This document shows positions 4,123-50,080 of a stretch of DNA of 64,000 nt, piece after piece. Each line of letters starts with the position of its first letter. The stretch's first letter is position 1. The stretch is from the NCBI RefSeq assembly GCF_001889405.1, contig NZ_CP017921.1:1564057-1628056 (forward strand), read 5' to 3'. The DNA is from Methanohalophilus halophilus (GTDB lineage: Archaea; Halobacteriota; Methanosarcinia; Methanosarcinales; Methanosarcinaceae). The notes beneath the pieces were generated by a model. It did not search any database. It was given only the letters and a program-made list of their open reading frames with translations, and had not been told where the DNA came from. Made by a program: the position numbers and the translations under genes.

Positions 4123-4294
4123 CTGAATTTCCTTCTGTTGCAGGTATAAGAATATTTTTCTTGACCTGCAATTTTCCTTTACATATTTGAATATAAGAAC
4201 ATTGCAGATATTGAATAACAATTCATAGTAGATTTCTTTGTCCAAAAAACACTCTAATAAAATTGGTCCGTTAGTTATTTAATTATGGAACAAA

Positions 4295-4428
4295 CTCCTA
4301 TATTTAGGAGAGTGGTGGGTATGAAACTCTCCTATTTACCAAGCCAACCGTTTTTAGAGAAGGAGCGGTTGAAAGGGTGGTGGTACGAAAGTGGGAACAT
4401 TATAGCATCGATGTTCCCACTATTTCAT
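4295..4428 (+). ncRNA. Structured RNA element, type I copy A
   Basis: The gap 4123-4662 holds no gene but a clear structured element. Hairpin 1 pairs GGAGAGT with ACTCTCC. Hairpin 2 pairs CAACCG with CGGTTG. A G-rich box GGGTGGTGGTACGA lies at 4375-4388. Hairpin 3 pairs AGTGGGAACAT with ATGTTCCCACT and is followed by a short U-rich run. The same order of parts, with different but still complementary stems, occurs at 8.8, 18.0 and 49.5 kb. A TATA-like AT-rich tract lies just upstream. The plus orientation is chosen to match the copies with better promoters. Confidence 0.7.
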
Positions 4429-4662
4429 AATTCCCTTTAACTAAATGTATATAGTATTATTCTAAAGTTTGCTTTTTGAATAAGAAAAGAGTAATTCTAA
4501 TTATTCAGTTGCTACTATTCAAAGTGACAGGGCTAAGGCTATTTTTGTATTTGTCTGTAAGAAACTTATAGTATTTCACGTATTATTGAAACACTGATTT
4601 TCTGATAGGAAAACAAAGTTAAGGTGAGAAGTACTTATCCAATATAAAACTTAACTGGGAGA

Positions 4663-5007
4663 TTATTTCTCCCAGTAAGGAGCAAATCCATATTTTGAAT
4701 AGACATCCGTCAGCCATTTGCGCTCATTGGACAAAGGCCAATTATCTTTATCGAATCCTTCCGAATCTTCAAGCAGCGACCTGTCGTGATGAAATACAAA
4801 CCTATGCTCGCCTTCTTTCAGAGACAATGCTTCCCAGGGAACTGCAAACAACTTGTCCTTGAAGGAAAGGGCTGCGTAGGCAACCGTACCAAAGTCAAGG
4901 TCAATCATCAGTTCTTCTATATGGCCAATGTCTTCACCGTTTAAATCCTCTACTTTGTCTTTTTCTATTGTACTTGCTGACAAAAATTTAGGTACACTTC
5001 CGTTCAT
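4663..5007 (-). CDS. PRC-barrel domain protein
   Basis: A 114-residue protein whose first 80 residues form a PRC-barrel (KFLSASTIEKDKVEDLNG... IGHIEELMIDLDFGTVAYA). The start at 5007 has a GGAGTGGG ribosome site 4 nt upstream; the frame extends further but without signal. PRC-barrels occur in photosynthetic reaction centre H subunits, in RimM and in many small archaeal proteins, where they act as binding or assembly modules. The C-terminal tail is charged and aromatic (DNWPLSNERKWLTDVYSKYG). The gene stands alone; its role is unknown. Confidence 0.8.
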   Translation of the reverse strand: MNGSVPKFLSASTIEKDKVEDLNGEDIGHIEELMIDLDFGTVAYAALSFKDKLFAVPWEALSLKEGEHRFVFHHDRSLLEDSEGFDKDNWPLSNERKWLTDVYSKYGFAPYWEK

Positions 5008-5239
5008 ATTTCCCACTCCTATTAAACGAAAGGCATGCGAGGAGAATTTATTATGATTACTGATACCTGCGGTTAAACCAAAATGAAACAAATTCTTCCA
5101 CCACAGCTACGAATCAGCCCCATACCTTCCATACATTTTTTTTCTTTTTGATGATTGTTAAAAGTATCGCCTATAGAGCCATCTAAAACTATTTCTGGTA
5201 GTAAACACAAGGTTATACAGGATCTTTTAAGGTGTGGGC

Positions 5240-6949
5240 ATGGAGTCATTTCGGAAACTTGTGGAACTTTATGAAGAATTAGATAATTCCACATCTCATA
5301 AAAAAATAATTGAATTGCTGGCGGAGCATTTTCAAGATCTTGAGCCGGCAGAAGTGAAAATAACTGCATATCTTGCACTGGGTACAATCGGTCCCCGGTT
5401 TGAAAAAATTGATCTGGGAATTGGAGATAAATATGGTATAAAGGCCATCTCCCAGGCCTACGATGTGGATAAGGAAAAAGTAGAGATCGCATTTGGGAAT
5501 CAAGGAGATCTGGGGGATGTGGCCTCTGTTCTTAATGAGAGACAGCGAAGTTCACTTACACTCAAGTATGTTTTTCAGCATTTTGTGCAGATAAGGGACG
5601 TTTCTGGAAAGGGTAGTCAAAAAAGAAAGATAAATTTACTCGCAGAAGTTCTGTCAAAGGCCAGACCTTTGGAATCCAGGTATATTATGCGTATTGCACA
5701 GGGAAATCTGAGACTGGGGTTTGGCGAGAAATTTCTTCTGGAAGCTCTGGCTCTGGCTTTTACAGGTTCCCGGGAGAATACAGCTAAAGTGGAAGATACA
5801 TACAATATATGTACTGATATCGGTCAGCTCGGCGAGTCTCTGGCAAAACACGGGATGGGTTCGTTGGGAAAGTTTTCCATTAAAATTGGCAGACCTGTCC
5901 AGATGATGCTAGCCAGCAGGGTAGATAGTATGGAGGAACTGAATGAGAAATTCTCCACAACTATGGCAGCCGAGGAAAAATATGATGGAGAAAGGGTTCA
6001 GGTACATGTGGACGGGGATAATATAAAGGCATTCTCAAGACGGTTAACCGATATTTCTGAACAGTTTCCTGACGTCATTGAGGCTGTTCGCAATAGCGTA
6101 AAAGCTGAAAAAATTGTCTTGGATGGAGAAATAGTTGCCTATGAGGAAGGGGAGTTTCGCCCCTTCCAGGAACTTATGCAGCGCAGGCGAAAGTACCGTG
6201 TTAAGGAATATGTAAAAAAAATCCCTGTTACCGTTTTTTTCTTTGATGTTATATATCTCGAGGGTAAATCTCTGATGAACCGGTCTTATCCTGAAAGAAG
6301 ACAAGTTTTGGAAGAAAATCTCGTAGAGACAGAAAAAGTAAAACTTTCAGGTCGGGTTGTGAGTGCAGATTTCTCCCGGATACAGCATTTTTTCGATGCT
6401 TGTGTGGAAAAGGGAATGGAAGGTATAATTATCAAGTCAGTAAAGGCTAAATCCACTTACAGGCCGGGAAAACGAGGTTGGTTGTGGGTTAAGTGGAAAA
6501 AGGAATATATCGAAGACGTAAGAGAAACCTTTGATCTGGTGATTGTTGGAAGTTATTATGGTAAAGGGAGGCGCAAAGGTTCATTTGGGGCATTGTTATG
6601 TGCTGTGCTAAATGAAAGCGAAAAAAGGTATGAAACTCTGGCTAAAGTAGGTACGGGTTTCAAAGATGAAGACTTTGCGGAAATCAACGATCTTATAAAA
6701 AAATACTCCGTTGAAAAACAACCTGTTAATATCCTTATAGACAGTAATATGCAGCCAGATAAATACATTAAACCAGCTGTTGTCATCGAAGTAATTGGAT
6801 CGGAGATTACTTCAAGCCCCTCTCATACGTCAGGTCAGAAAAATTCCGGGAATGGATATGCACTACGTTTTCCACGTTTCCTTAGAATAAGGTATGACAA
6901 AGGCCCAGAGGATGCAACTACAGTTGAAGAGGTGAGGCATCTGAAATGA
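5240..6949 (+). CDS. lig: ATP-dependent DNA ligase
   Basis: A 569-residue archaeal/eukaryotic type DNA ligase, the replicative and repair nick-sealing enzyme. An N-terminal DNA-binding domain (1-220) precedes the adenylation domain with catalytic Lys247 in EEKYDGERVQVH, motif III (VFFFDVIYLEG), motif IV (EGIIIKS) and motif V (WLWVKWKKEY), then an OB-fold with the C-terminal motif RFPRFLRIRYDKGPEDATT. Length and motif order fit the family. The ATG at 5240 follows AAGGTG with ideal spacing; an upstream GTG at 5234 overlaps that box. It overlaps the PolX gene by 4 nt (ATGA), so ligase and gap-filling polymerase are probably made together for base-excision or end repair. Confidence 0.95.
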   Translation: MESFRKLVELYEELDNSTSHKKIIELLAEHFQDLEPAEVKITAYLALGTIGPRFEKIDLGIGDKYGIKAISQAYDVDKEKVEIAFGNQGDLGDVASVLNERQRSSLTLKYVFQHFVQIRDVSGKGSQKRKINLLAEVLSKARPLESRYIMRIAQGNLRLGFGEKFLLEALALAFTGSRENTAKVEDTYNICTDIGQLGESLAKHGMGSLGKFSIKIGRPVQMMLASRVDSMEELNEKFSTTMAAEEKYDGERVQVHVDGDNIKAFSRRLTDISEQFPDVIEAVRNSVKAEKIVLDGEIVAYEEGEFRPFQELMQRRRKYRVKEYVKKIPVTVFFFDVIYLEGKSLMNRSYPERRQVLEENLVETEKVKLSGRVVSADFSRIQHFFDACVEKGMEGIIIKSVKAKSTYRPGKRGWLWVKWKKEYIEDVRETFDLVIVGSYYGKGRRKGSFGALLCAVLNESEKRYETLAKVGTGFKDEDFAEINDLIKKYSVEKQPVNILIDSNMQPDKYIKPAVVIEVIGSEITSSPSHTSGQKNSGNGYALRFPRFLRIRYDKGPEDATTVEEVRHLK

Positions 6950-8658
6950 TCAATCGGGATATAGCCAAACTGCTCTATGAGATTGCGGATATATTTGAAT
7001 ATAAAGAAGTAGAGTGGAAACCTCGTGCATACCGCAAAGCAGCCAGAAAAATAGGGGATATGAGGGAAGACATCTCAGGACTCTACGCAAAAAAGGGCAG
7101 GGAAGGACTGGAAAACATTCCCGGTATTGGAAGCCGTATTGCAGACCACATTGTTGAATATATTGAAACCGGGTCTGTGGAGGAATTTAGAAAGATCAGA
7201 AAACAAACTCCCAGGGGTGCTAGTAAGATAATAAAGATTAGAGGGCTTGGTCCTAAAAAAGCAAAAAAACTCATGGATGAACTCGACATACAATCAATAC
7301 CCGATCTGAAAGAGGCAATTAAAAATCAGGAGATCCGCAAACTTGAAGGTTTCGGAGAAAAGACTGAAGAAAATCTGGATAAAGCAATTTCCCAATACGA
7401 AAAAAGCCATGAACGTATGCTTTTACCAAAAGCAATGGATTTGGCTGAAGAAATTATATCCTATATGGAAGAAAACACTACCCTGAAGAAAATAGATTAC
7501 GCTGGATCCCTGCGGCGGATGAAGGAAACGATTGGGGATATAGATATACTGGTTGTTGCTTCGGATCCTGAAGAAGTCATGGATGCCTTTGTCAATTTTG
7601 AAAATGTGGACGAGGTTGAATCCCGGGGTAAGACACGCAGTACAATAATATTGCAAAACGGCGGTCATGTAGATTTGAGAGTTGTTCCAGAAAGTAGTTA
7701 TGGAGCAGCATTACAGTATTTTACAGGCTCAAAGGACCATAACATCGAACTGAGAAACCTTGCCCTCTCGAAAGGCTATAAGCTTTCGGAATATGGATTG
7801 TTTAAAGAGGATTCCAATAAAAAGATTGAAGGAAGAAAAGAAGATAGAATTTACGGAAAACTGGGCCTAAGTTTCATCCCGCCGCAACTGCGGGAAAACA
7901 GGGGAGAGTTGGAATGTGCAAAAAATGCACTTCCTTCACTGGTGGAGTTAGAAGATATCAGGGGTGATCTGCATGTCCATACTTCTTACAGTGACGGGAC
8001 GGATAGCCTCAATTCTATTATCACCCGGGCCGATAAATTGGGATATGAGTATATTGGTATAACTGATCATTCCAGATCCCGCAAGATCGCAGGTGGGTTA
8101 GGGATCGATAAGGTAAAAGATCAGTGGAAAGAAATAGATGGCCTCCGCGATGATTTTGATATAGATATCCTGAAAGGTATTGAAGTGGATATCCTTCCTG
8201 ATGGAAGTTTGGATTGTCCGGATGACATTCTTGAGGAAATGGATATTGTAGTGGGATCTATTCATTCCGGTTATAAGTCTTCCAAAAAGAAAATGACTGA
8301 AAGGATAACTACTGCCCTGCAAAATGAATTCCTGCATGTGCTGGGCCATCCTACAAGCCGCAAGATCGGTATTCGGGAGGCATATGCTGTTGACCTTGAC
8401 AAAATATTCGAAACAGCGGCAGAAAACGGTAAACTTCTGGAAATAAACAGCCAGCCGGAAAGGCTTGACCTTAACGACAACCTGATTTTACATGCCAAAA
8501 AATATGACCTTAAGTTTTGTATCAGCAGTGACAGTCATTCCTCCGCACAACTGGATTTCATGAAATACGGTGTAGGACAAGCACGTAGAGGATGGCTTAC
8601 AAAGGATGATATTGCTAATACTTATTCATTGAAAGAACTGAAAAGATTAATTGGCTGA
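6946..8658 (+). CDS. polX: Family X DNA polymerase with PHP domain (PolX)
   Basis: A 570-residue prokaryotic PolX. The order is an 8-kDa lyase-like and helix-hairpin-helix region (1-130, with IPGIGSRIADHI), a palm with metal-binding GDIDILVV near residue 198 and HVDLRVV near 243, and a C-terminal PHP phosphoesterase (about 340-570). The PHP part has DLHVHTSYSDGTD, GITDHSRS, GSIHSG and CISSDSHSS supplying its metal ligands. PolX fills short gaps, and the PHP domain gives 3'-5' exonuclease or phosphatase activity in characterised bacterial members. Its start overlaps the stop of the DNA ligase, making a compact gap-filling/sealing operon. Confidence 0.94.
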   Translation: MINRDIAKLLYEIADIFEYKEVEWKPRAYRKAARKIGDMREDISGLYAKKGREGLENIPGIGSRIADHIVEYIETGSVEEFRKIRKQTPRGASKIIKIRGLGPKKAKKLMDELDIQSIPDLKEAIKNQEIRKLEGFGEKTEENLDKAISQYEKSHERMLLPKAMDLAEEIISYMEENTTLKKIDYAGSLRRMKETIGDIDILVVASDPEEVMDAFVNFENVDEVESRGKTRSTIILQNGGHVDLRVVPESSYGAALQYFTGSKDHNIELRNLALSKGYKLSEYGLFKEDSNKKIEGRKEDRIYGKLGLSFIPPQLRENRGELECAKNALPSLVELEDIRGDLHVHTSYSDGTDSLNSIITRADKLGYEYIGITDHSRSRKIAGGLGIDKVKDQWKEIDGLRDDFDIDILKGIEVDILPDGSLDCPDDILEEMDIVVGSIHSGYKSSKKKMTERITTALQNEFLHVLGHPTSRKIGIREAYAVDLDKIFETAAENGKLLEINSQPERLDLNDNLILHAKKYDLKFCISSDSHSSAQLDFMKYGVGQARRGWLTKDDIANTYSLKELKRLIG

Positions 8659-8769
8659 AAGTTGTAACATCTTTTCCAAATCGCCCATAGTTTCCGAGTA
8701 TGGATATTAGAATTATTGCTAAAGCAGGCCAAAGATAAAACTACTGTTTCAGCTCTTAAACAAGTCAAA

Positions 8770-8897
8770 GTGTAAAGAGGATTTGAGAGCAAAGGGGCCC
8801 TTACCCAATGCTCTCAACTCATGCCCCACTCCTCTTTTCAGTCGCAACCCCTATTACGACTGGTTTTGGTGAGAGTTCCCTTTACTCTCACTCCAAA
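8770..8897 (-). ncRNA. Structured RNA element, type I copy B
   Basis: Read on the minus strand, hairpin 1 pairs GTGAGAGT with ACTCTCAC, hairpin 2 pairs CAGTCG with CGACTG, the box is GGAGTGGGGCATGA, and hairpin 3 pairs TTGAGAGCA with TGCTCTCAA followed by a U-rich stretch. The layout matches copies A, C and D, while the stem sequences differ in a compensatory way. A TATA box (TTTATATAA in minus sense, 8914-8922) lies about 25 nt before the first stem. It fills most of the gap between polX and the amphi-Trp gene; the rest of 8923-9250 shows nothing recognisable. Confidence 0.75.
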
Positions 8898-8913
8898 TTC
8901 ATAAATGTGATCG

Positions 8914-8923
8914 TTATATAAAT
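8914..8923 (-). promoter_or_regulatory. TATA box for RNA element B
   Basis: On the minus strand the sequence reads ATTTATATAA, close to the archaeal TATA consensus, and sits about 25 nt upstream of the first hairpin of element B. No minus-strand gene uses it. Confidence 0.6.
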
Positions 8924-9250
8924 ACAAAAGGGTCAGAAATATTGTATGCACTTAGAATTTTCAATGACATTTTAATTGATTTTTATGTATGTTTAGACCT
9001 TAATTAAAATCGACAATAGAAAAATGTGTATACAATGTTATGCCTTCAATTGTAGTTAGGGAGGCTTATGGCGGTAATTCCTTTTTCTTGTATCCTCAAT
9101 ATCACTCATATTCTTCAATATATCAGGTTTTATATTCTATCTTTTGGGTACAGCATCGAGGATTGATCTCCCGATTATTCTTACCAACGATACTATATAT
9201 CAAATTATGTCAAATATTATATGCCGATTATTCAAACTTGGAGTGGGAAT

Positions 9251-9469
9251 ATGACAGAACCAGAAAAGGAAATTGAAAAGAATTATTCATACAATAAACA
9301 GGAAATTATTAAATTCCTGGGTGACTTGAAGAACCAAATTGAGGCTGGAAGAATAGAGATTGGACAAGAACATGTTGAGATGCCCGATGGCAACATGGAC
9401 GTAGAATACGGTTTCAAAATTGAAAAAGGACAAAAAGAGATTGAAATAGAAATAAAATGGAAGAAATAA
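9251..9469 (+). CDS. Amphi-Trp domain-containing small protein
   Basis: A 72-residue acidic protein with a helix followed by beta strands, ending in IEIEIKWKK. The pattern of a long amphipathic helix (KQEIIKFLGDLKNQIEAGRI) then VEMPDGNMDVEYGFKIEKGQ is that of the small amphi-Trp family of haloarchaea and methanogens, whose role is unknown. The ATG at 9251 follows GGAGTGGGAAT, the same type of ribosome site as the PRC-barrel gene. It is not linked to a neighbour. Confidence 0.7.
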   Translation: MTEPEKEIEKNYSYNKQEIIKFLGDLKNQIEAGRIEIGQEHVEMPDGNMDVEYGFKIEKGQKEIEIEIKWKK

Positions 9470-9517
9470 AAAGATAATAGTACTTTTGGAAAACTTACAT
9501 ATAAGATTGTTGTATAT

Positions 9518-9621
9518 TGATGGGCAAGGAAATAAACTACATCAGGTGTTATAAACTCCTTTCATTGTGGTCTGGTGGTGGATAAAAACAATTTTATCCT
9601 GCATAATTAACCTGCCCATCA
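9518..9621 (+). ncRNA. Structured RNA element, type II copy E
   Basis: A 5' strand TGATGGGCAAGG pairs with the 3' strand CCTGCCCATCA (11 pairs, one bulged A) and encloses about 80 nt. Inside is a G-rich box (GGTCTGGTGGTGG) followed directly by a hairpin GGATAAAA/TTTTATCC. An ACATATAAG TATA-like box lies about 20-25 nt upstream on the plus strand. It resembles the element at 34.1 kb in closing stem and box. Nothing else is seen in the 9470-9827 gap. Confidence 0.6.
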
Positions 9622-9827
9622 CTATATCTATATGGTTTTTTTTGGGATATAAGTAGCGGAACGAAGAGTTCTGAACTTTCTTATCTATTCTAAGGATAGC
9701 TTAAGATTTTTTGCTTTAATATTGCTGTTGAAAAGTGAGACACGATAGTTGATTATAACTAAAAAGTGACTAAAAAAATAAGATGGAGAAACTCCATCTT
9801 TGCATTATTCATAGTTTGTTTGCTTAT

Positions 9828-10265
9828 TTATGGGACTACCATCACAGATGTTTCCGCATGACGGACGACATTTTCTGCTACACTTCCCAATAAGAGCTGG
9901 GTAAGACCTGTTTCACCCAGTGTCCCCATTACGATGAGGTCTGTATTGTTCTTCTTAGCAAAGTTGACAATCCCCTCGGATGGATGTTCTTCAATGGTAA
10001 CTGGTTCTACTTCGACTCCAGCTGCTTTACCCACTTTTACAACATATTCAGTGGCTTCCTTGCCCTCTTTTTCTAAATGGGTGCGTGTTCCTTCAGCCCA
10101 GCTTTCTCCGCGAACTGCAGCAGAAACACCAACTGGTGGTATGACAAATAGGGCCTTGACCTTTGCATCGGTTGATTTTGCAAGATCTATACCCCAATCT
10201 ACCGCATTCTTTACATTCTCAGATCCGTCAGTAGCAATTAGTATATTTTCAATTTTCTCACTCAT
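9828..10265 (-). CDS. Universal stress protein (UspA family)
   Basis: A 145-residue single-domain Usp with an N-terminal ILIATDGSENV nucleotide-binding aspartate and the C-terminal ATP-binding signature G-x2-G-x9-G-S (from GTLGETGLTQLLLGSV). The presence of this signature predicts an ATP-binding Usp. Such proteins are cytoplasmic and induced under starvation or stress in many prokaryotes; the precise role here is unknown. The gene is alone. An AT-rich stretch upstream (10280-10340) contains likely promoter sequence. Confidence 0.92.
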   Translation of the reverse strand: MSEKIENILIATDGSENVKNAVDWGIDLAKSTDAKVKALFVIPPVGVSAAVRGESWAEGTRTHLEKEGKEATEYVVKVGKAAGVEVEPVTIEEHPSEGIVNFAKKNNTDLIVMGTLGETGLTQLLLGSVAENVVRHAETSVMVVP

Positions 10266-10490
10266 GATTTACCCCCATTTATTATACAGAGAGATAGACC
10301 TATATACTTTTTGGTCAAAAGATTGGTAAATTTTGTTAAAAGAAAATATATATTAACACAGTGTATCTTTTCATTCTTTCTTATGATTATAAATGAGTTT
10401 TTCTATACATCGGATAATAATGTGTATAATCCAAAATGAATTATATGATTGGTAACTAATGATTTGTGGGACTTAGTGGGGTACGAGTAA

Positions 10491-11003
10491 ATGAAAGTAT
10501 TAGTAACATATATAACCCGGACAGGAAATACAAAGAAAGTTGCAGAAGCAATTTATGATGAGATTGATGAACAAAAGGAAATGAAACCATTAGATGAAGT
10601 TAATAGCCTGGATGGTTACGATTTAACTTTTATTGGTTTCCCGATTAATCAGTTATATCCACCAGAAAAAGCGCAGAAATTTTTAAACAATCAAACATCT
10701 GGTAGAGACAGTGCTTTGTTTATGACTCATGGAGTACCTGAGGGTACAGGATTGATATTGGATTGGATATCTACAGCTAAAGAAATGGCATCAGGGGCAA
10801 ATATTATAGATATTTTCAATTGTCAGGGTAAAGTTGCCCGGAAAGTACTGGATATTCTACAGAACTCTGATGATCCGGAAATGCGAGCTTTTGCTAATAT
10901 GTGTGTTTTGGCCAAAGAGCAGCCAGACAGAATCAGGTTGCAAAAAGCGCGTGAATTTGCAAGATCGATTGTCTCTCAGAAAAAAGGATACATAGCACCA
11001 TAA
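10491..11003 (+). CDS. Flavodoxin-family protein
   Basis: A 170-residue flavodoxin-like FMN protein. The phosphate-binding loop TYITRTGNTKKVAEAI is at the N-terminus and GYDLTFIGFPI forms the second isoalloxazine-contact strand. The C-terminal half is helical and contains two or three cysteines (FNCQGKVA, NMCVLAKEQ). It is longer than short-chain flavodoxins only at its C-terminus. It would carry electrons in the cytoplasm; the partner is not evident from the neighbours, which are an UspA gene and a C_GCAxxG_C_C gene on the opposite strand. Confidence 0.85.
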   Translation: MKVLVTYITRTGNTKKVAEAIYDEIDEQKEMKPLDEVNSLDGYDLTFIGFPINQLYPPEKAQKFLNNQTSGRDSALFMTHGVPEGTGLILDWISTAKEMASGANIIDIFNCQGKVARKVLDILQNSDDPEMRAFANMCVLAKEQPDRIRLQKAREFARSIVSQKKGYIAP

Positions 11004-11075
11004 TATTAAATTTATCTGTATTTATTTTTAGGTATTGTGCTTTATTACTACTTTATAGATTTAGTACCTTTATTT

Positions 11076-11597
11076 TCATAGGTTTGGTTCAATGCCTTCA
11101 TCCAGCAAGACTTTTGCCGTCCATTTCGCCGCATTTCCCGTTACACCTGGGCATTTATCATCATGCCCTCCAGCTTCTTCAAAAGCTTCAAATTCCTTTG
11201 GATCCCACAGATTATAGGAATTTCCAAATACTTCTTTTTGGATATCGTTACAGATAATACTACCATATTCATCAATGAATTTTTCTCTAACTCCCTTTGA
11301 TAATCTAGATGAATCCATCCAATCCGCAACATCTCCTTCGCCGAACTGATCCCTTTTTCTACCGAAAAAGGCGCTAATAGCCATCATAGCTCCACTATAT
11401 CCACCACAGGTCCCATCACCATCCAGTGCACCTCCACCAGCAAGGGAATGGGATGCCTGGATCACTTTATCATCTATTCCACCAAAAATATCCTGTATTG
11501 CTGAAAGAACTGCTTGAGAGCAGTAACCATATTTCCTTTCGTACTCAAAACCTTTATCGTAAGCTTTGTCTAAAATTTCTTGCTCATTATCGACCAT
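11076..11597 (-). CDS. C_GCAxxG_C_C family (putative redox) protein
   Basis: About 173 residues from the ATG at 11597, which follows AAAGGGG. It shows the family's spaced cysteines: YGYCSQAVLSA, then a glycine-rich GGGALDGDGTCGGYSGAMM, then two late cysteines (IICNDI and DKCPGV). These proteins are small, cytoplasmic and suspected to bind an iron-sulfur cluster or to act as redox carriers; no member has a firm reaction. The first cysteine block departs slightly from the family name (C-S-Q-A rather than GCA). It faces the flavodoxin gene convergently. Confidence 0.8.
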   Translation of the reverse strand: MVDNEQEILDKAYDKGFEYERKYGYCSQAVLSAIQDIFGGIDDKVIQASHSLAGGGALDGDGTCGGYSGAMMAISAFFGRKRDQFGEGDVADWMDSSRLSKGVREKFIDEYGSIICNDIQKEVFGNSYNLWDPKEFEAFEEAGGHDDKCPGVTGNAAKWTAKVLLDEGIEPNL

Positions 11598-11698
11598 GAA
11601 ATACCCCTTTTCCATGTAATACTGGTCTTGGCGTGTATATGAATATTTTCCTCTTAGCTTTGAGTTACTGAATCAGTGTAATAAAATACTATATTGGT

Positions 11699-11914
11699 TT
11701 GGCAAAAAACGGCTCGGCAGATAATTTTGTAAGTTTTAAAGTAAGGAAAAGTTACATGGTTATGCGATTAAAACCTGAAGACTCCGAAGATATCGAAAAC
11801 GAGCTTCTTGAATCAGGTTTAGACCTTATGGATTACAACCGTAGAAGCGAGCTTCAGAGAATCCGGTTGGTAAAAAAGGATCTTGTAGATATGAAGAAAC
11901 AATCAGGAAATTAA
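11699..11914 (+). CDS. Small protein resembling the C-terminus of DUF5655
   Basis: A 71-residue reading frame with a TTG start that carries FVSFKVRKSYMVMRLKPE, a long charged helix and LQRIRLVKKDL. This resembles the tail of DUF5655 (predicted nuclease- or transport-linked) proteins. No N-terminal portion is present, so it may be a remnant or a free-standing small protein. No good ribosome site is visible. The 70 bases after it hold nothing obvious. Confidence 0.4.
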   Translation: MAKNGSADNFVSFKVRKSYMVMRLKPEDSEDIENELLESGLDLMDYNRRSELQRIRLVKKDLVDMKKQSGN

Positions 11915-11988
11915 TGCAGATGTCCTACGACTATGTTCATTTATGATACAAAATTGCACTTTAGGTGTTGATATCTCCTTAGGAGATA

Positions 11989-12495
11989 TCATTGCTCTTT
12001 GTATTCTCTCATAATTTCGATGTAAGATGCAGCATTTTCTTCAACCATCTTTATATCTTTATCGTTTGCTTCCCTTCTAATTCTTCCCGGGATTCCTGTA
12101 ATTACATTTGCAGGCCCATATCTTTTTCCGGGTGCTACGAGTGCATTGGCACCAACAATTGAATTATCGCCTATTTCCGCACCTTCAAGTACAGTTGCAT
12201 TCATACCTATAAGCACATTATTTCCGATTTTACAACTATGTAACACTGCTCCGTGGCCAATACTGACATTATCACCAATTTCGACCATTTTGGACGAGTC
12301 ATTGTGGATTACCACATTATCCTGGATACTGGTCCCCTTTCCTATATTTATTTCATTCATGTCCGCACGTATTGTGGCATTAAACCAGATACTTGAGTCC
12401 CTGTCAACCCTGACATTTCCTATGACTTCCGCAGATTCTGCAACAAATACACTGTCATGTATTGTCGGCCCTTTACCCCTGAAATTTCTTATCAT
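11989..12495 (-). CDS. Gamma carbonic anhydrase-like hexapeptide-repeat protein
   Basis: A 168-residue left-handed beta-helix protein made of repeated I/V-G-x4 hexapeptides. The metal-binding histidines of the gamma-carbonic anhydrase family are visible in VVIHNDSS and SIGHGAVLHSCKIG, and the N-terminal WFNATIRADMN loop matches the short (YrdA/CaiE-like) branch. These trimers bind zinc or iron at subunit interfaces; some hydrate CO2 and others are of unknown activity. The start at 12495 overlaps the stop of the upstream frame (TAATG) and has a GGTG site. It lacks the signal peptide of Methanosarcina Cam, so it is cytoplasmic. Confidence 0.9.
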   Translation of the reverse strand: MIRNFRGKGPTIHDSVFVAESAEVIGNVRVDRDSSIWFNATIRADMNEINIGKGTSIQDNVVIHNDSSKMVEIGDNVSIGHGAVLHSCKIGNNVLIGMNATVLEGAEIGDNSIVGANALVAPGKRYGPANVITGIPGRIRREANDKDIKMVEENAASYIEIMREYKEQ

Positions 12496-12776
12496 TATCT
12501 CACACCATTCTCTCTTACATGTATAGCCAAATTTACTTTCCACACAGATTTGTCCACTATGTATTTATACATATTTTTTGAAGGGAAATCTTTTCCCATA
12601 TTCCTGACAAAGAAAATAGATTGCCTGGAAATGTTTCCGGAATAAGTCATTAGCTCCAGATGTTTGTTTTCATTATTTACAGTATATTTTCCGGCTGCAT
12701 CTATGTTATCAAAAATCAGGATATTTCCAGGAATGGACAATACTGCTTTTCCAAAAGGATAATTGTATCTTTTCAT
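12495..12776 (-). CDS. Hypothetical protein upstream of gamma-CA
   Basis: A 93-residue basic frame whose TAA overlaps the ATG of the carbonic anhydrase-like gene (TAATG), an arrangement typical of translational coupling. The sequence (MKRYNYPFGKAVLSIPGNIL... DFPSKNMYKYIVDKSVWKVN) has mixed alpha/beta character and no signal peptide. I do not recognise it, and there is no strong ribosome site. The overlap is the main reason to believe it is real. From 12843 to 13026 nothing was found except AT-rich promoter-like sequence. Confidence 0.45.
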   Translation of the reverse strand: MKRYNYPFGKAVLSIPGNILIFDNIDAAGKYTVNNENKHLELMTYSGNISRQSIFFVRNMGKDFPSKNMYKYIVDKSVWKVNLAIHVRENGVR

Positions 12777-13026
12777 ATCATATACAATTTTTTAACAACA
12801 AAATATTGTTGGTATCCCCATTTACCATTGTTCTCTTCCTGAATATAAGTATGCTCACTATTCAATACTTATTTTTGGAATTGTATTTTTTCTATAAAGT
12901 ATATGTATTTACTGCTTGTGATTTTTCATATATTTCTTTTGTTTTTTAGTTCACACTCCCCCTTGGGCGTTTAATATTTAATGTCCAATGAAGTAAATAT
13001 TGATGGGGATTAGATAGGGAATAATT

Positions 13027-13236
13027 ATGCAGGAAATTAAACCACTGGCTTTGGGGCTTGCACTTGTAGCCCTTGCTGCAATGCTAATGCTTTTATCTGG
13101 TCTATCGGGGAATTCAGGTGTATACACCTCACCTGTTGAAATGCTGTCCCGGTGGAACATGTTTTTTTCATTTAGTTTTGCAGTTATCATTGCAGGCATG
13201 CTGGAAGCTGTGATAATATACAACAGGTTAATTTAA
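13027..13236 (+). CDS. Small two-helix membrane protein next to cytochrome c
   Basis: A 69-residue hydrophobic protein with two transmembrane segments (LALGLALVALAAMLMLLSGL and FFSFSFAVIIAGMLEAVIIY). It starts at an ATG after AGGGAATAATT and is followed after 27 nt by the cytochrome gene, so the two are probably one operon. It may anchor or assemble with the cytochrome in the membrane. I do not recognise a named family. Confidence 0.7.
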   Translation: MQEIKPLALGLALVALAAMLMLLSGLSGNSGVYTSPVEMLSRWNMFFSFSFAVIIAGMLEAVIIYNRLI

Positions 13237-13263
13237 GGAAACCAGATAGAAGGGGGATTAAAT

Positions 13264-13827
13264 TTGTCAAGGAACATGTTGATATTACTATTGTTTATTG
13301 GGGTTGTATTAATTTTTGTTGGAATGATGAATCTCTTTTACACTCCACCATCATACCAGCAATACGGATGGCAACAGCCGGGAAATATGTATCCGGGTGA
13401 TATGGCTCCGTCCCCGTCACCACCATCGAATTCTGACATTATCAATGAATTTGATAGCAACGGCGAAATGATATATTATACGGGCTTTAATGAAGATGGA
13501 CAAAGAATACCATTTCAGGGTGGTCCTCACTGGTTAAGCGTACATGGTGGAAGCTGTGTAAGTTGCCACGGTGTTGATGGAAAAGGTGGTGTGCCGATAA
13601 TGATGGGTACTGCAGTTCCTCCTGATATTACCTATGAAGCATTGACTTCTGAGCAAAATCATGAGGATGAACATGAAGATCATCCCGTTTATACTGATGA
13701 AACTATCAAGAAGGCTATTAAACAGGGAATTGATCCGTCGGGGGAAAGACTGGATTATACGATGCCGCGCTGGGACATGTCAGAAAAGGATCTCAACGAT
13801 TTGGTTGAATATTTGAAAACCCTGTAA
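13264..13827 (+). CDS. Membrane-anchored monohaem cytochrome c
   Basis: A 187-residue protein with an uncleaved N-terminal transmembrane anchor (residues 5-27), a Pro/Ser-rich linker and an extracytoplasmic cytochrome c domain. The haem site is CVSCH with Cys98, Cys101 and His102, followed by a methionine-rich loop (VPIMMGTAVPP) and a C-terminal MPRWDMSEKDLNDLVEYLK. The last part is the usual final helix, with Met as a possible sixth ligand. A TTG start is chosen because GGGGGA sits 7 nt before it. Cytochromes c are confined to some Methanosarcinales methanogens, where they take part in membrane electron transfer; the partner here is unknown. The histidine-rich HEDEHEDHP segment may bind metal. 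Confidence 0.88.
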   Translation: MSRNMLILLLFIGVVLIFVGMMNLFYTPPSYQQYGWQQPGNMYPGDMAPSPSPPSNSDIINEFDSNGEMIYYTGFNEDGQRIPFQGGPHWLSVHGGSCVSCHGVDGKGGVPIMMGTAVPPDITYEALTSEQNHEDEHEDHPVYTDETIKKAIKQGIDPSGERLDYTMPRWDMSEKDLNDLVEYLKTL

Positions 13828-13864
13828 TTAACCAAAAGGTATATTGAAGGTATTGCCTGCTGTC

Positions 13865-14164
13865 TCAGACAATATCCTTCAATGCATTTGCAGCAGTATA
13901 TACGCTTCCGATTCCAGAAATATAGTTGGCTAGCCTTACTGCCTGCATCACTTCTTCTTTTGTAGCTCCGGCATTGATTGCCTGTGTAGCAAGGTTTCTG
14001 ACCCCATTCTCAGCTCCTTCTGATGCATCAAGTGCCATTGCAATCAGGAATTTGTATTGTAGCGGTATGCCTTCTTCGGTGAAAGCCAATTCACCGCTTT
14101 GTCCGATTAAACCAAACATGTCAGGGTCTGCCTTTTGTATAGTATCGAGGGGGTCATCTGTCAT
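13865..14164 (-). CDS. Carboxymuconolactone decarboxylase (AhpD-like) family protein
   Basis: A 99-residue all-helical CMD-fold protein (YKFLIAMALDASEGAENGVRNLATQAINAGATKEE split over two helices). The AhpD-type CxxC redox motif is absent, so peroxidase-coupled activity is unlikely. The family is found widely as hexamers with poorly known functions. It is monocistronic and lies convergent to the cytochrome gene. Confidence 0.8.
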   Translation of the reverse strand: MTDDPLDTIQKADPDMFGLIGQSGELAFTEEGIPLQYKFLIAMALDASEGAENGVRNLATQAINAGATKEEVMQAVRLANYISGIGSVYTAANALKDIV

Positions 14165-14232
14165 TTTAATTGCTCCTGTTAGTTTTGAATATAAATAATG
14201 TAATACGGATTGATTAATTTAAAGAATATACT

Positions 14233-14442
14233 TTATAGTGCACCACATCCACACCCACGTCCTGTGAGGGTCGATATCCGATACTTTATCTCCTTTACTT
14301 CGTCTTCAGACATCTTTTCCAGTTCATCTCCGTGGACTTGCTTGATGTGGTCAAGCATCTTTTTTTCTACTTCTTCCTGGTTGGTACCTGTAGCCATGAA
14401 ATTACATTTGAAACCCAGATCCCTGCATTTGACGATTTTCAT
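14233..14442 (-). CDS. DUF1059 small protein
   Basis: A 69-residue protein with the DUF1059 pattern: KCRDLGFKCNFMATG at the N-terminus, DHIKQVHG in the middle, and here a cysteine-containing tail (GRGCGCGAL). The Cys/His spacing suggests a small metal-binding fold. Function is unknown in all organisms. The GGAGGATAC sequence upstream of the ATG at 14442 is a good ribosome site. Confidence 0.85.
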   Translation of the reverse strand: MKIVKCRDLGFKCNFMATGTNQEEVEKKMLDHIKQVHGDELEKMSEDEVKEIKYRISTLTGRGCGCGAL

Positions 14443-14610
14443 TCCTGTATCCTCCTCTATTTTTAAAAAGCACTAATTACCCTATAAATCATTTTCATAC
14501 ATTAGGCTAAAAACCTTCCCCTATGATTGCAATTGAAACCACATTTGTTACCGATAACGCATAAATACTCACAGACTCATCTTATTTCAGGGTTTAATGA
14601 GGAGTTTATA

Positions 14611-15051
14611 ATGGAAGTATCAGATCCTGAAAAAATAATGTCTCGCCTGCTTACCGGTCAATTACTCGGAGTGCTGGCTACACAGAATAACGGCCAGCCC
14701 TATACCAACCTTGTGGCCTTTGCTGCAAGTGAAAATTTCAAGTATCTTCTTTTTGTTACGCCGAAGTTTACAAGGAAGTATTCAAATCTGAGTTCTTCCC
14801 AGGAAGCATCCTTGATGATCGACAATCGATCCAATACGGTATCTGATTTTAAGCAAGCCACTGTTTTGAACGCAATGGGAAATGTGAAAGAAATAGAAAA
14901 AGACCCTGAAATGATCAATCTTTATCTGAGCAAACATCCCTATCTTAGCAGTTTCCTTGAGAGCCCTTCATCTGCACTGATGAAATTTCAGGTTGAAAAA
15001 TATATTGTGGCGACAAGTTTCCAGAATGTTGTGGAGATCGATATGCTATGA
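14611..15051 (+). CDS. Pyridoxamine 5'-phosphate oxidase-family protein
   Basis: About 146 residues with an FMN-binding split-barrel pattern (LTGQLLGVLATQNNGQPYTN, LLFVTPKFTRKYSNL). Members bind FMN, F420 or haem, and the family name does not imply vitamin B6 synthesis. The ATG at 14611 is chosen because GGAG lies 8 nt upstream; the open frame extends leftwards without signal. It overlaps the following PEP-synthase-like gene by 4 nt, so the two proteins are probably made together. Confidence 0.82.
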   Translation: MEVSDPEKIMSRLLTGQLLGVLATQNNGQPYTNLVAFAASENFKYLLFVTPKFTRKYSNLSSSQEASLMIDNRSNTVSDFKQATVLNAMGNVKEIEKDPEMINLYLSKHPYLSSFLESPSSALMKFQVEKYIVATSFQNVVEIDML

Positions 15052-17186
15052 CAAATCTTGTAATTCCTATGGAAGGAATCCGGGAAGAGCATATGGATAT
15101 TATCGGAGGCAAAGCTTACTCTTTGCACAGGCTTCTTGAAAATGGCTTCCGTGTTCCTGCATATTTTTGTGTCACAACAGATGCGTATAACAAATTTTTG
15201 GATTGCAGTGGTCTGAAGGGTAAACTCATAATCGAATTTGCCAGAAAGGATTTCTCAAAAATGAGATGGGAGGAAATGTGGGATGCAGGTTTGCGTATCA
15301 GGAACATGTTTATGAATACCCCGATCCCTGCGGCTTTAGTCGATACAATCAACTCACAGGTACCAAAAGACTTCCTAAAAAGGGCAGTGGTTGTCCGATC
15401 TTCTGCACCCGGCGAAGATTCAAGCAAAACATCATTTGCAGGTCTACACGAATCATATGTAAATGTGGCAGGTATGGAAGAAATACTGGAAAGCATCAAA
15501 CTGGTATGGGCCTCTCTCTGGTCCGATGCTGCAATTCTGTACAGGCAGGAACTGGGACTTGACATAGAGCACAGTTCAATGGCTGTTATGGTTCAGGAAA
15601 TGATAGAAGGTAATGTTTCAGGAATTGTATTCAGCACAGATCCTAATAATGCCAATAAATTGACCATCGAAGCCATTCACGGGCTTAACAAAGGATTGGT
15701 AGAAGGAGATGTGGAGCCCGATCGCTGGCAATTAGATAAGTTTTCAGGTTCAATTGTGCAGCATATTGTTCCTTCAAGCAGGGATCGCATTGTTTCATTG
15801 TCAGAAAAAGGCACATTGATGGGGTCAATTCCACAGTTATTATCCCACAAAACCCCTCTTACTACTGATGAGGTCAAACAAATATATGAAATGGCCATTT
15901 CTTCTGAAAAAATATTTGGTTTACCGCAGGATATGGAATGGACTATTATCAACAATGAATTGTATACTCTCCAGTCAAGACCGATAACAAATGCACAAAA
16001 CAATGAAAAACAGTGGTATATATCCCTGAAAAGGACTTTCGAAAACCTGAAGCAATTACGCAATCGTATAGAACAAGATTTAATTCCTGCAATGATTTCC
16101 GAAGCTAATGCTCTATCTGGCTTGAATTTACATAAGCTCAACAATGTTGAACTTGCAACTGAGATCTCCCGCAGACAGGGAATATACCAAAAATGGGATG
16201 AAATCTACACCAGGGAGTTCATACCTTTTGCTCATGGGATGAGATTATTCGGCCAGGTTTACAATGACGTTATAAAACCACAGGATCCTTATGAATTTGT
16301 GGATTTACTCGCAGATTCTAAATTGCTGAGTGTCCAGCGAAATGAGCAACTTAGACAAATGGCAGAATTGATTAGAAATAATACAGCTCTGCGAAGAAAA
16401 GTAGAAAATGGTATTTTGGAAGGAAAATTCAAAGAGCTTTTTGATAATTTCATGGACAATTTCGGAAGGTCTCCTTATGTTACAGAAGAAAATGATATCA
16501 TACGGTTGATTCTTGAATTTGGGTTTGCCCCTGTTTCAATAGGGGCAAATTCAAAAGACGTAAAGAAAAGGGAAATGGATTTTCTTTCTAATTTTAAAGA
16601 TGAAGAGAGGGAATGGGCCAGCCAACTCCTGGACCTGGGGCGGGCAAGTTACAGGCTAAGAGATGATGATAACATATATCTTGGCAGGATAGAAGGACAA
16701 TACCTATCTTCTTTGAGGGAAGGTAAAATCAGGCTGGCAGAAAGAGGTATAAGGTATGAAATTGAAAATTCCGAAGTTATTGCTGCATTATTCAATGATT
16801 CTTACATTCCGCCCGTTAAACCAATACAGGAAAATGCCCTATTAAAGCAGAAGGCCACGGATAGACAGATTCAGGGTCAACCTGCAGGTAAAGGTTCTGT
16901 TACAGGGATTGCACGAGTTATAAATGAAAATACAGACCTTTTTAATATTCATGCCGGTGAAATTTTGGTATGTGATTCCATCGATCCTAATATGACCTTT
17001 GTCATTCCCCTTGCCGGAGGGATTGTGGAGCGTAGGGGAGGGATGCTTATACATGGGGCTATAATAGCCAGGGAATACGGGATTCCCTGTGTGACCGGTA
17101 TCCCGGATGCAATCAGTATAATTAAATCAGGCGATGAAGTAACAGTTGATGGCAATTTGGGTATTGTAGTCATACACAGGCATTGA
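15048..17186 (+). CDS. PEP synthase-like phosphotransferase (ATP-grasp plus mobile His domain)
   Basis: A 712-residue protein of the pyruvate phosphate dikinase/PEP synthase superfamily. The N-terminal ATP-grasp half (1-320) has GGKAYSLHRLLENG, VVRSSAPGEDS and GIVFSTDP. A helical middle (330-600) follows, and then the swivelling phosphohistidine domain with GGMLIHGAIIARE, His669 being the predicted phosphorylated residue. The PEP/pyruvate-binding TIM barrel that ends true PEP synthases is absent. The layout resembles rifampicin phosphotransferases and related antibiotic- or small-molecule-dikinases, so pyruvate is not a safe substrate assignment. It overlaps the PNPOx-family gene by ATGA. Confidence 0.85.
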   Translation: MTNLVIPMEGIREEHMDIIGGKAYSLHRLLENGFRVPAYFCVTTDAYNKFLDCSGLKGKLIIEFARKDFSKMRWEEMWDAGLRIRNMFMNTPIPAALVDTINSQVPKDFLKRAVVVRSSAPGEDSSKTSFAGLHESYVNVAGMEEILESIKLVWASLWSDAAILYRQELGLDIEHSSMAVMVQEMIEGNVSGIVFSTDPNNANKLTIEAIHGLNKGLVEGDVEPDRWQLDKFSGSIVQHIVPSSRDRIVSLSEKGTLMGSIPQLLSHKTPLTTDEVKQIYEMAISSEKIFGLPQDMEWTIINNELYTLQSRPITNAQNNEKQWYISLKRTFENLKQLRNRIEQDLIPAMISEANALSGLNLHKLNNVELATEISRRQGIYQKWDEIYTREFIPFAHGMRLFGQVYNDVIKPQDPYEFVDLLADSKLLSVQRNEQLRQMAELIRNNTALRRKVENGILEGKFKELFDNFMDNFGRSPYVTEENDIIRLILEFGFAPVSIGANSKDVKKREMDFLSNFKDEEREWASQLLDLGRASYRLRDDDNIYLGRIEGQYLSSLREGKIRLAERGIRYEIENSEVIAALFNDSYIPPVKPIQENALLKQKATDRQIQGQPAGKGSVTGIARVINENTDLFNIHAGEILVCDSIDPNMTFVIPLAGGIVERRGGMLIHGAIIAREYGIPCVTGIPDAISIIKSGDEVTVDGNLGIVVIHRH

Positions 17187-17261
17187 GTGACTGAATATTC
17201 TATGTTATTTTTGGTTTCTGAAACCAAATTTTAGCTATTACCTAATATTTTGCAGGTACCA

Positions 17262-17900
17262 ATGTCGACAAAGAAGACAGGAAAAAGAGCAGATTATTCA
17301 GATTACCTGGTAGGGTTGTGCAAAAATCGGATGAATAATACATCCGGTCGATATAATAATATTATTATTTTTGTTTTAATAGCTCTTTTTATTATTACGT
17401 GGTCAATTTTTCTCCATTACTATCCTCCAAAATTGATAGTATCAACCTTGGGTATTAACAATACTTATCTGGCTATTTTCCTGTTGTCTTTAATTGGCGG
17501 AGTTTCCACATTTACTTCTACTACATTTTATACTGTTCTTATAACAATAGCTTTGTCTGAAGTAAATCCGGTCTGGTTGGGATTGATTGCAAGTTTGGGT
17601 CTCACTCTGGGTGACCTGTTATTCTATTACATGGGCAGGAAAGGGAAACAATGCGTACCGGGAAAATATGAGGCAAAAGTAATTAAGCTGGCTGCAAAAC
17701 TGGAACAAATCAATGATAAACTGATCATTCTTATTATATTTTTATATTCTTTGACCCCTCTGCCCAGCGATATTTTAGCGATAGGCCTTGCATTTGGTGG
17801 ATTTCCAGTGAAAAAATTGATTCCACCTCTTTTTGTGGGTAATTTCGTACTTATAGTGCTACTTGTAGAATTTTCCAGATTAGGTTATGGTATACTGTAA
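17262..17900 (+). CDS. VTT/DedA-like small membrane protein
   Basis: About 212 residues with five or so hydrophobic segments. The centre (IGGVSTFTSTTFYTVLITIA, LGLTLGDLLFYYMGRKGKQ, LYSLTPLPSDILAIGLAFGG) resembles the VTT/YqaA-type fold, including a proline in the re-entrant hairpin and a short polar GRKG loop. Relatives act in membrane protein or lipid homeostasis, but this assignment rests on pattern only. The start at 17262 is chosen over an upstream TTG. The stretch 17901-18379 carries RNA element C and otherwise nothing recognised. Confidence 0.55.
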   Translation: MSTKKTGKRADYSDYLVGLCKNRMNNTSGRYNNIIIFVLIALFIITWSIFLHYYPPKLIVSTLGINNTYLAIFLLSLIGGVSTFTSTTFYTVLITIALSEVNPVWLGLIASLGLTLGDLLFYYMGRKGKQCVPGKYEAKVIKLAAKLEQINDKLIILIIFLYSLTPLPSDILAIGLAFGGFPVKKLIPPLFVGNFVLIVLLVEFSRLGYGIL

Positions 17901-17975
17901 TATTTCTGGGTTATACGGGCTTAAAAATTTTAATAGGCCTTATGTTTTAAGCCACTTCATTGTATTTTTATCCAT

Positions 17976-17988
17976 TTATTATATATAG
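17976..17988 (+). promoter_or_regulatory. TATA box for RNA element C
   Basis: TTATTATATATAG precedes the first hairpin of element C by the distance expected between an archaeal TATA box and its start site. The nearest plus-strand gene (rtcA) begins nearly 400 nt further on, so the box most simply serves the RNA. Confidence 0.5.
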
Positions 17989-18008
17989 TAATCTATCAAT
18001 CATTTTTT

Positions 18009-18140
18009 GATAAGGGGGAGTTTAGCAGCATGACTCTCACCTTGTGTTCAGCCTGAAACGGGGGTTTGGCTGATATGGGAGTGGTGGTACGATATTGAGA
18101 GTAATGGATTGAAATCCTTACTCTCATTTCTCCTGTGTTT
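18009..18140 (+). ncRNA. Structured RNA element, type I copy C
   Basis: Hairpin 1 is GGGGGAGT...ACTCTCACC, hairpin 2 pairs CAGCC with GGCTG, the box is GGGAGTGGTGGTACGA (18077-18092), and hairpin 3 pairs TGAGAGTAA with TTACTCTCA followed by a U-rich tail (TTTCTCCTGTGTTTTT). A TATA-like TTATTATATATAG lies at 17976-17988, about 25-30 nt upstream. It is the clearest copy of the family on the plus strand. Confidence 0.78.
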
Positions 18141-29287: not shown

Positions 29288-29348
29288 TGATGAGCGGGTA
29301 ATTACCTTTTTTTGTACCCCCACTCCCCAGCCCGCTCATACCACCCAT
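29288..29348 (-). ncRNA. Structured RNA element, type II copy G
   Basis: On the minus strand TGAGCGGG and CCCGCTCA form the closing stem. Inside is GGGGAGTGGGGGTAC followed by an A-run and GGTAATTA. GGGTGGTA precedes the stem. The element is matched by copy H at 49.8 kb in stem, G-box and upstream promoter, while the remaining sequence differs. No gene accounts for it. Confidence 0.65.
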
Positions 29349-29390
29349 TATTAAGCAGGTCTGATTAAGATTAATGTAGTTGAGTATTAC

Positions 29391-49222: not shown

Positions 49223-49454
49223 ACAATAACCCCCTATTTAATTTTATATACCACAAGTTGGAGTATATATTACAATGTGTTTTTAGGAATAAAACTTTGA
49301 GAACGTATAGTTAGAACTATTAGTTAGAATAAAAGTAGTGTAGCATAAATCGTTACCACATACATAAGTTCCTATGCAAAAAAGACCTTCATAATAATTA
49401 AAATAACTTTTGCAAAAATAATTCAGAATAAATTTAAGAGTTCCGTTTTTAATA

Positions 49455-49577
49455 AATAGAAGTATTGAGAACAAAGGATTTTTCATCCAATGTTCTCAAT
49501 ACTGTACCACCACTCCCACTCAACAGCTACCACTAAACTGCTGAGTCATAGTGAGAGTTCCCAAACTCTCACCAATT
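49455..49577 (-). ncRNA. Structured RNA element, type I copy D
   Basis: On the minus strand: hairpin 1 GTGAGAGT...ACTCTCAC, hairpin 2 CTCAGCAG...CTGTTGAG (one mismatch), box GGGAGTGGTGGTACAG, and hairpin 3 TATTGAGAACA...TGTTCTCAATA followed by CTTCTATTTATT. It matches copies A-C in layout. A TATA box (CTTATATAG in minus sense) lies about 25 nt upstream. No gene lies in 49223-50186, which is instead filled by this element, element H and repeat J3. Confidence 0.78.
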
Positions 49578-49594: not shown

Positions 49595-49604
49595 TCTATA
49601 TAAG
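49595..49604 (-). promoter_or_regulatory. TATA box for RNA element D
   Basis: On the minus strand CTTATATAGA precedes element D by about 25 nt. No protein gene could use this promoter, since the next minus-strand gene begins some 370 nt downstream, past the element. Confidence 0.55.
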
Positions 49605-49775
49605 CTAAATGGATATTAATATTGCAATAACTTTTGAATTTTTGATACTATCAAAAGTTTAAATTGCCAAAAAAGAATGTTAGTTAATCCTATTCCCAGT
49701 CGATATATCCTAAATTAACTAAAAAAGTGACCATAAAGTGTATATACAATAACCATCTTTATTACAATTATTAAA

Positions 49776-49845
49776 TGAGCGGGTAGTATCCAATATCTTT
49801 TTCTAGTACCCCCCACTCCCCACTACCCGCTCATATCACCCCACA
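49776..49845 (-). ncRNA. Structured RNA element, type II copy H
   Basis: A perfect 12-bp stem (TGAGCGGGTAGT with ACTACCCGCTCA) encloses GGGGAGTGGGGGGTAC and an A-rich segment on the minus strand. GGGGTGATA precedes it. It is the sister of element G, with a slightly longer stem. Its promoter (see 49897-49917) is the same as that of G. Confidence 0.7.
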
Positions 49846-49896
49846 GAAAAATAAGACGGGATTATTACTTTAGTACTAAGTCCATGTCTTATTCAA

Positions 49897-49917
49897 ATAT
49901 ATACTCTTTGTTTCGAA
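49897..49917 (-). promoter_or_regulatory. Promoter of RNA element H, same as for G
   Basis: On the minus strand TTCGAAACAAAGAGTATATA; identical over 19-20 bases to that at 29391-29413. The first hairpin is some 50-60 nt further on, so the transcript probably begins with a leader that in H can also pair (ATAAGAC with GTCTTAT). Confidence 0.65.
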
Positions 49918-49999
49918 GGATAAATAGGGTATAAAAAAACTAATTTCCGGAAATAAATTTTATGATTTGGAAGATTTAAAGACAATTCCAATGAATTGT

Positions 50000-50080
50000 A
50001 AGAGTTCCGTTTTTCAGAGATACCTATATCCCCGCACCTTTTTAAAGAGTTATAGGTAGGAGTGAAAAATGCAATCCTTC
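50000..50080 (+). repeat. Short repeat family J, copy 3
   Basis: It begins AAGAGTTCCGTTTTTCAGAG, then CCTATATCCCCGCACC, then TTATAGG, then GAGTGAAAAATGCAATCCTTC. The first 38 bases are shared with the copy at 56.6 kb. A CCTATA/TATAGG stem can form, although the inner pairs seen in other copies are lost. Confidence 0.6.

Follow-up and report, generated by a model that had tools for sequence, protein, structure and literature searches.

What are the repeated, hairpin-rich elements that lie between protein genes in the genome of the halophilic methanogen Methanohalophilus halophilus, and what might the RNAs that they appear to encode do? They were described in a stretch of 64,000 bases (the window), which covers bases 1564057 to 1628056 of a single-contig genome of 2,022,959 bases (G000, contig C1), where a first-pass annotation had recorded a four-copy structured RNA. 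This family, here called type I, has seven copies in the genome and carries a G-rich box that is complementary to the C-rich loops of two further families, types II and III. We tentatively propose, at slightly less than an even chance, that type I RNAs are encoded in trans to these C-rich small RNAs (sRNAs) and serve as their partners, in the manner of sponges or target mimics; the transcript status of type I and the pairing between box and loops were computed or inferred from sequence only.

A structured RNA family in Methanohalophilus

Each of copies A to D lies within a few nucleotides of its first-pass position and shows, by sequence and fold, three hairpins (numbered 1 to 3 from the 5' end), with the G-rich box between hairpins 2 and 3. 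The original count of four proved too low, as a search with BLAST and two covariance models (CMs), R1 (full length) and R2 (hairpin 2 to the 3' end), adds copies E, F and G outside the window. A CM built from copies B, C and E and their relatives only recovers D at 65.7 bits and A at 27 bits in the window, and a second CM, built with all copies, scores A to D at 67 to 83 bits.

The compensatory stem changes first seen in the four copies are real and hold in more genomes. In an alignment of 22 sequences, made by sequence with structure not used in the fitting, 8 of the 15 pairs tested in hairpins 2 and 3 carry two-sided changes. Overall, 88.6% of the cells pair, versus 34 to 46% when the partner strand is slid by 1 to 3 columns, and none of 500 shuffles matches the observed percentage paired, the number of two-sided pairs or the covariation score. 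The alignments misplace hairpin 1 of some copies and the 3' arm of hairpin 2 in copy A, the latter error lowering the hairpin 2 pair count in this test. Hairpin 1 was compared by eye and left uncounted: A, B, and D share GAGAG/CTCTC, C has GGGAG/CTCTC, E has GGAACTT/AAGTTCC, F has a stem based on CCGGG, and G has TTGGGAGAA/TTCTCTCAA. A fourth, closing helix is likely, in which GGAG of the box would pair with CUCC (or its equivalent) just 3' of hairpin 3; it would leave UGGUGGUACGA in a one-sided internal loop and is uncounted in the covariation test because its register varies between copies.

Just as the first-pass annotation stated, no protein gene explains the elements, for which no open reading frame (ORF) accounts. 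A small ORF in the box of copy B (GGAG...ATG AGT TGA) was rejected, as the other copies do not have it. Rfam (15) yields no family at gathering score across the window. For ten loci drawn from the three families, those of type I holding copies A, B, C, D, and F, nothing appears even at E values up to 1, which agrees with the statement that no named RNA has this form. Neither an Rfam family nor a mobile-element end was recognized, which together with the covariation supports the initial view of a structured multicopy RNA. Type I is a structured non-coding RNA family.

The G-rich box (consensus GGAGUGGUGGUACGA) is the most conserved stretch, as had been claimed, but it is unequally kept, with deviant forms in B (GGAGTGGGGCATGA), F (GGAGTGGGGGTTAA), and G (CGGTGGGGTACGA). 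Each of the seven copies is preceded by a TATA-like box, about 28 to 32 nt before hairpin 1, rather than three of four at about 25 nt. For A, B, C, E, and F, orthologues share 85 to 96% identity within the RNA versus 51 to 72% over the next 100 nt, and the similarity between copies stops at the RNA end. The copies and their parts are as follows (positions are those of the window unless preceded by C1).

4306..4436, plus strand: type I copy A (sequence, fold, CM hits, and orthologues in G033 to G036)
4306-4313 and 4326-4333, plus strand: hairpin 1 of copy A, AGGAGAGT and ACTCTCCT
4345-4350 and 4366-4371, plus strand: hairpin 2 of copy A, CAACCG and CGGTTG
4375-4388, plus strand: box of copy A, GGGTGGTGGTACGA
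4390-4400 and 4411-4421, plus strand: hairpin 3 of copy A, AGTGGGAACAT and ATGTTCCCACT
4276..4289, plus strand: TATA-like box of copy A, TTATTTAATTATGG, upstream of hairpin 1
8767..8892, minus strand: type I copy B (sequence, fold, CM; orthologues in G031 and G033 to G035, 94 to 98% identity)
8819-8832, minus strand: box of copy B, GGAGTGGGGCATGA
8914..8924, minus strand: TATA-like box of copy B, TATTTATATAA
18014..18143, plus strand: type I copy C (sequence, fold, CM; orthologues in G033 to G036, 92 to 95% identity)
18077-18092, plus strand: box of copy C, GGGAGTGGTGGTACGA
17978..17990 (bounds approximate), plus strand: TATA-like box of copy C, TATTATATATAGT
49449..49573, minus strand: type I copy D (sequence, fold, CM; this genome only)
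49502-49517, minus strand: box of copy D, GGGAGTGGTGGTACAG
49596..49604, minus strand: TATA-like box of copy D, CTTATATAG
C1:210546-210673, plus strand: type I copy E
C1:1719981-1720103, plus strand: type I copy F
C1:1720374-1720470, plus strand: type I copy G, about 0.4 kb past F

Type I is present in six of the eight Methanohalophilus genomes (this one and seven sister genomes), G032 and G037 having no detectable copy. A, B, C, and E each have relatives in four of the seven sister genomes, and F and G in five. F and G lie side by side everywhere but in G034, in which a rearrangement parts them. Copy D is found in this genome only, and its flanks have no orthologous match in the sister genomes. 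Outside the genus, no genome passes E = 0.001 in a CM scan of 186 genomes of the order. Weak matches there, where readable, show the three-hairpin layout in no case; one (L066) lies in apparent coding sequence, and two others (L067 and L069) consist of a hairpin only. Judged by these searches, type I is restricted to Methanohalophilus. The restriction to one genus, the three further copies, and the complementary C-rich families described below were all absent from the first-pass annotation.

Two C-rich families complementary to the type I box

Types II and III are both intergenic and unannotated. Type II was first met as a repeated hairpin near copy D while the surroundings of D were being mapped. 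It is composed of a stem (GAGCGGG/CCCGCUC) and a large loop (...UAGUACCCCCACUCCCC...) with the C-rich core GUACCCCCACUCCCC, and a conserved GTGTATATACA box is situated about 25 to 28 nt upstream on the C-rich strand. Type III is a nested hairpin with the loop UCAUAUCGUACCACCACCA, present in five copies in the genome. An alignment of 23 sequences, drawn from several genera, shows two invariant parts of the loop, UCAUAUCGU and ACCACCA; the ACC between them is absent in one sequence only.

49774..49850, plus strand: type II, divergent from copy D; ATGAGCGGGTAGT...loop TAGTACCCCCCACTCCCC...ACTACCCGCTCAT, with GTATATACA upstream at 49740-49748 (alignment)
29290..29350 (genome 1593346-1593406), plus strand: type II, second copy in the window; GATGAGCGGG...TTGTACCCCCACTCCCC...CCCGCTCATACCACCC, with ATGTATATACGG upstream
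C1:999393, 1018423 (minus strand), and 1329906: further type II sites in the genome
9020..9135 (bounds approximate), plus strand: decayed type II, divergent from copy B
C1:17571, 616939, 1167303, 1286642, and 2003826, all minus strand: type III copies (further copies at L247, L254, L268, and others)

Pattern searches covered 112 genomes of the family in 14 genera. The type II pattern GTACCCCCACTCCCC, with at most one mismatch, occurs in 31 of them and in 8 genera, with few matches to the reversed control, some of the one-mismatch matches appearing to be coding rather than type II. The type III pattern ATCGTACCACCACCA occurs in 44 genomes and 8 genera, a few of its matches being coding. Both families display TATA boxes about 25 to 30 nt upstream on the C-rich strand across genera, and their stems vary while the loop stays fixed. 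The type III stem contains 10 G-U versus 3 A-C cells when read on the C-rich strand, and at the site of the decayed type II, G033 has an intact type II whose stem changes are compensated (ATGGGCGG/CCGCCCAT) and whose loop core is unchanged. The promoters, the G-U cells of type III, and the changed-but-paired stems assign both families to the C-rich strand. Types II and III occur in many Methanosarcinaceae genera and appear to be older than type I.

The type I box GGAGUGGUGGUACGA is complementary to the C-rich loops of both families, so that type I has what a sponge or target mimic should have, sequence complementarity to conserved loops of candidate sRNAs. The type III sequence AUAUCGUACCACCAC matches GUGGUGGUACGAUAU of copy C over 15 nt with zero mismatches, and type II is complementary to copy C at 14 of 16 nt (two mismatches). 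For TATCGTACCACCAC, an order-3 Markov model predicts 0.013 occurrences on both strands of the genome versus 6 found, namely, the antisense of copy C and the five type III loops. Predicted duplexes reach −24 to −31 kcal/mol with type III for A, C, D, E, and G and −24 to −29 kcal/mol with type II for C, D, E, and F, B matching type II less well. These energies are mostly 4 to 11 kcal/mol better than those of composition-matched reversed loops; for example, C with type III gives −28.5/−30.6 versus −17.4/−19.7 for the control, and E with type II gives −28.6 versus −19.4. Copy D and a type II gene are arranged head to head, as are B and a type II gene in G033, at the site where the type II of the present genome has decayed.

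Several observations on types II and III were made alongside. In genus g7, several genomes have type III copies in tandem, spaced by about 360 bp. In several type III genes (L247, L254, L260, and C1:2003826 of this genome), the TATA box is preceded by a ATCATNATGATGAT-like dyad; it is perhaps a regulator site and possibly the "cold box" of Methanolobus psychrophilus sRNAs. An intergenic segment of 320 bp, which includes the type II hairpin along with another TATA-like box (ATATATACTCTTTG), is duplicated between window positions 49711-50032 and C1:999327-999649, with 89% identity. Among 1826 gene starts, the top matches to the type III loop belong to two neighboring genes, C1:1200225 and C1:1203949, a lead only. 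The first encodes a large protein with SdrD_B/DUF7507 domains, and at least one of the pair is of surface type; the leaders at C1:1200219 and C1:1203940 have GGTGGTAT(G/A)AATGGAGTGGATACGATGAA in common and a possible five-codon upstream ORF (MEWIR) that overlaps the start. Two more intergenic G-rich sites contain GGTGGTATGAGC, at C1:116803, which has no Rfam match, and at C1:588135. In viral contigs, the type III motif has no match, and around four matches to the type I box the type I hairpin sequence is absent; these four look like chance.

Possible roles of type I

In the proposed mechanism, type I genes would give rise to small RNAs of about 120 to 130 nt, each from its own promoter, that fold into three hairpins (hairpins 2 and 3 backed by covariation) and the presumed closing helix. 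The G-rich box would be held single-stranded in an internal loop between hairpins, for which the folds give partial support, and could there capture the open C-rich loops GUACCCCCACUCCCC of type II and UCAUAUCGUACCACCACCA of type III; in copy C, the segment GUGGUGGUACGA is the predicted contact with the type III RNA. Type I would in this manner titrate types II and III away from their normal targets. Methanohalophilus probably evolved a sibling decoy set, and these decoys probably arose later than types II and III because the latter exist without type I. Type III match counts are 5, 2, 7, 3, 4, and 4 in the genomes that carry type I versus 1 and 1 in the others; higher type III counts with type I, and less clearly higher type II counts, are only suggestive in eight related genomes. 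Transcription of type I, its pairing in the cell, the direction in which it regulates, and the mRNAs affected in the end are inferred.

A number of results weigh against such a role. Free folding leaves the type I box open in part only, with a mean unpaired probability of 0.30 to 0.62. Several copies have a good match to no more than one partner family: in this genome's copy B and in every F box, pairing with type III is no better than the controls, and the pairing of A and G with type II is weak. Duplex energies of the whole RNAs give only moderate z-scores, although these were judged uninformative because RNAduplex opens both RNAs from end to end. Across the genome, the loops of types II and III do not pair more often at translation starts than in coding bodies, so that this test indicates neither their own targets nor what a sponge would relieve; a general anti-Shine-Dalgarno role of the two families was rejected, as no genome-wide enrichment is seen. 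Types II and III are moreover present in genomes without detectable type I, including G032 and G037, and type I is therefore not their main target. Type III match counts are 5, 2, 7, 3, 4, and 4 in the genomes that carry type I versus 1 and 1 in the others; higher type III counts with type I, and less clearly higher type II counts, are only suggestive in eight related genomes.

Type I could instead be a set of ordinary sibling sRNAs that use the box to act in trans on mRNAs or a protein, with types II and III as antagonists or unrelated and the complementarity secondary. Its multiple copies, with diverged stems and a retained box, would suit this alternative, as would the higher type III counts given above, but the best complements of the box in the genome, its own antisense aside, include the type II and III loops, and complements to the box are not in excess at translation starts (26 start-region versus 55 body matches below −18); we regard it as unlikely, though worth keeping in view. 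It is more doubtful still that the box is a protein-binding site common to several RNAs, its likeness to the G strand of types II and III then reflecting recognition in the sense orientation and not pairing. GGUGGUAYGA-like motifs are indeed also present in a few leaders and elsewhere in intergenic DNA, yet the promoters and G-U pairs that set types II and III on the C-rich strand make the shared word antisense in those RNAs.

The genes around type I bear on two further explanations. Copy A lies next to genes for an alpha/beta hydrolase and a DNA ligase, B next to DNA polymerase X (PolX) and an Amphi-Trp protein, C next to a VTT-domain protein and RtcA, D next to a NosD-type protein, E next to a CMD-family protein, and F and G next to argininosuccinate synthase. 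A cis-regulatory leader, of riboswitch or attenuator type, might be read from C and D, each of which is followed after about 230 nt by an ORF, that of rtcA for C and a same-strand ORF for D. However, B, F, and G point at the 3' end of a gene on the opposite strand and thus are not leaders, the neighbors are unrelated, the copies keep no constant place upstream of any one gene class, and conservation drops right past the RNA, so that this explanation is largely refuted and very improbable. The intergenic position of the copies, their promoter-like boxes, the differing neighbors, and the convergent B, F, and G are instead those of trans-encoded archaeal sRNAs. A link to RtcA or DNA repair, suggested by the neighbors of C, A, and B, was rejected, as E, F, G, and D adjoin unrelated genes. 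Ends or remnants of a mobile element (a miniature inverted-repeat transposable element or an omega RNA) would explain the multiple copies and the place of D in a strain-specific stretch. The copies nevertheless occupy fixed syntenic loci with orthologues, resemble each other only within the RNA, covary under constraint, have no transposase among the neighbors examined, and show no element features, which makes this origin hardly credible.

Relation to known small RNAs and meaning

Among described methanogen RNAs, sRNA154 and sRNA41 of Methanosarcina mazei are intergenic sRNAs able to mask ribosome binding sites, sRNA154 being described as highly conserved in Methanosarcina (PMC5867862). Compared by description, type I resembles them as folded intergenic methanogen sRNAs with single-stranded seed regions but differs from sRNA154 in being multicopy, limited to Methanohalophilus, and equipped with a G-rich, target-like seed that is not anti-ribosome-binding-site. 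Methanolobus psychrophilus has cold-induced, conserved sRNAs with a "cold box" (PMC5378194), which by description are like type III in that a number of conserved sRNAs encoded between genes share an upstream element; the type I promoters do not have the ATCATNATGATGAT-like dyad, unlike several type III promoters. Types II and III may already be known transcripts in M. mazei or Methanolobus psychrophilus.

Sponges and target mimics of sRNAs are known in bacteria, and type I, in an archaeon, is like them in presenting the complement of an sRNA seed in a structured context. Staphylococcal Rsa sRNAs carry UCCC loops; types II and III have similarly C-rich hairpin loops but show no excess of start-site pairing in the genome-wide test. 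A search of the open literature named no archaeal RNA sponge.

Taken together, the three families could form an archaeal RNA-on-RNA network, a possible though doubtful picture in which two family-wide C-rich sRNA families face genus-specific, multiplied G-rich decoys directed at near-invariant loops, some of them head to head with the target gene. To our knowledge, archaeal sRNAs with a worked-out mechanism are few. Here, sequence alone yields a specific prediction of three RNA families linked by complementary cores, for which the decoy-free lineages serve as natural controls. Should the sponge role prove wrong, there would still be three conserved methanogen RNA families absent from Rfam; if true, it would mean that sRNA titration evolves on the time scale of a genus.

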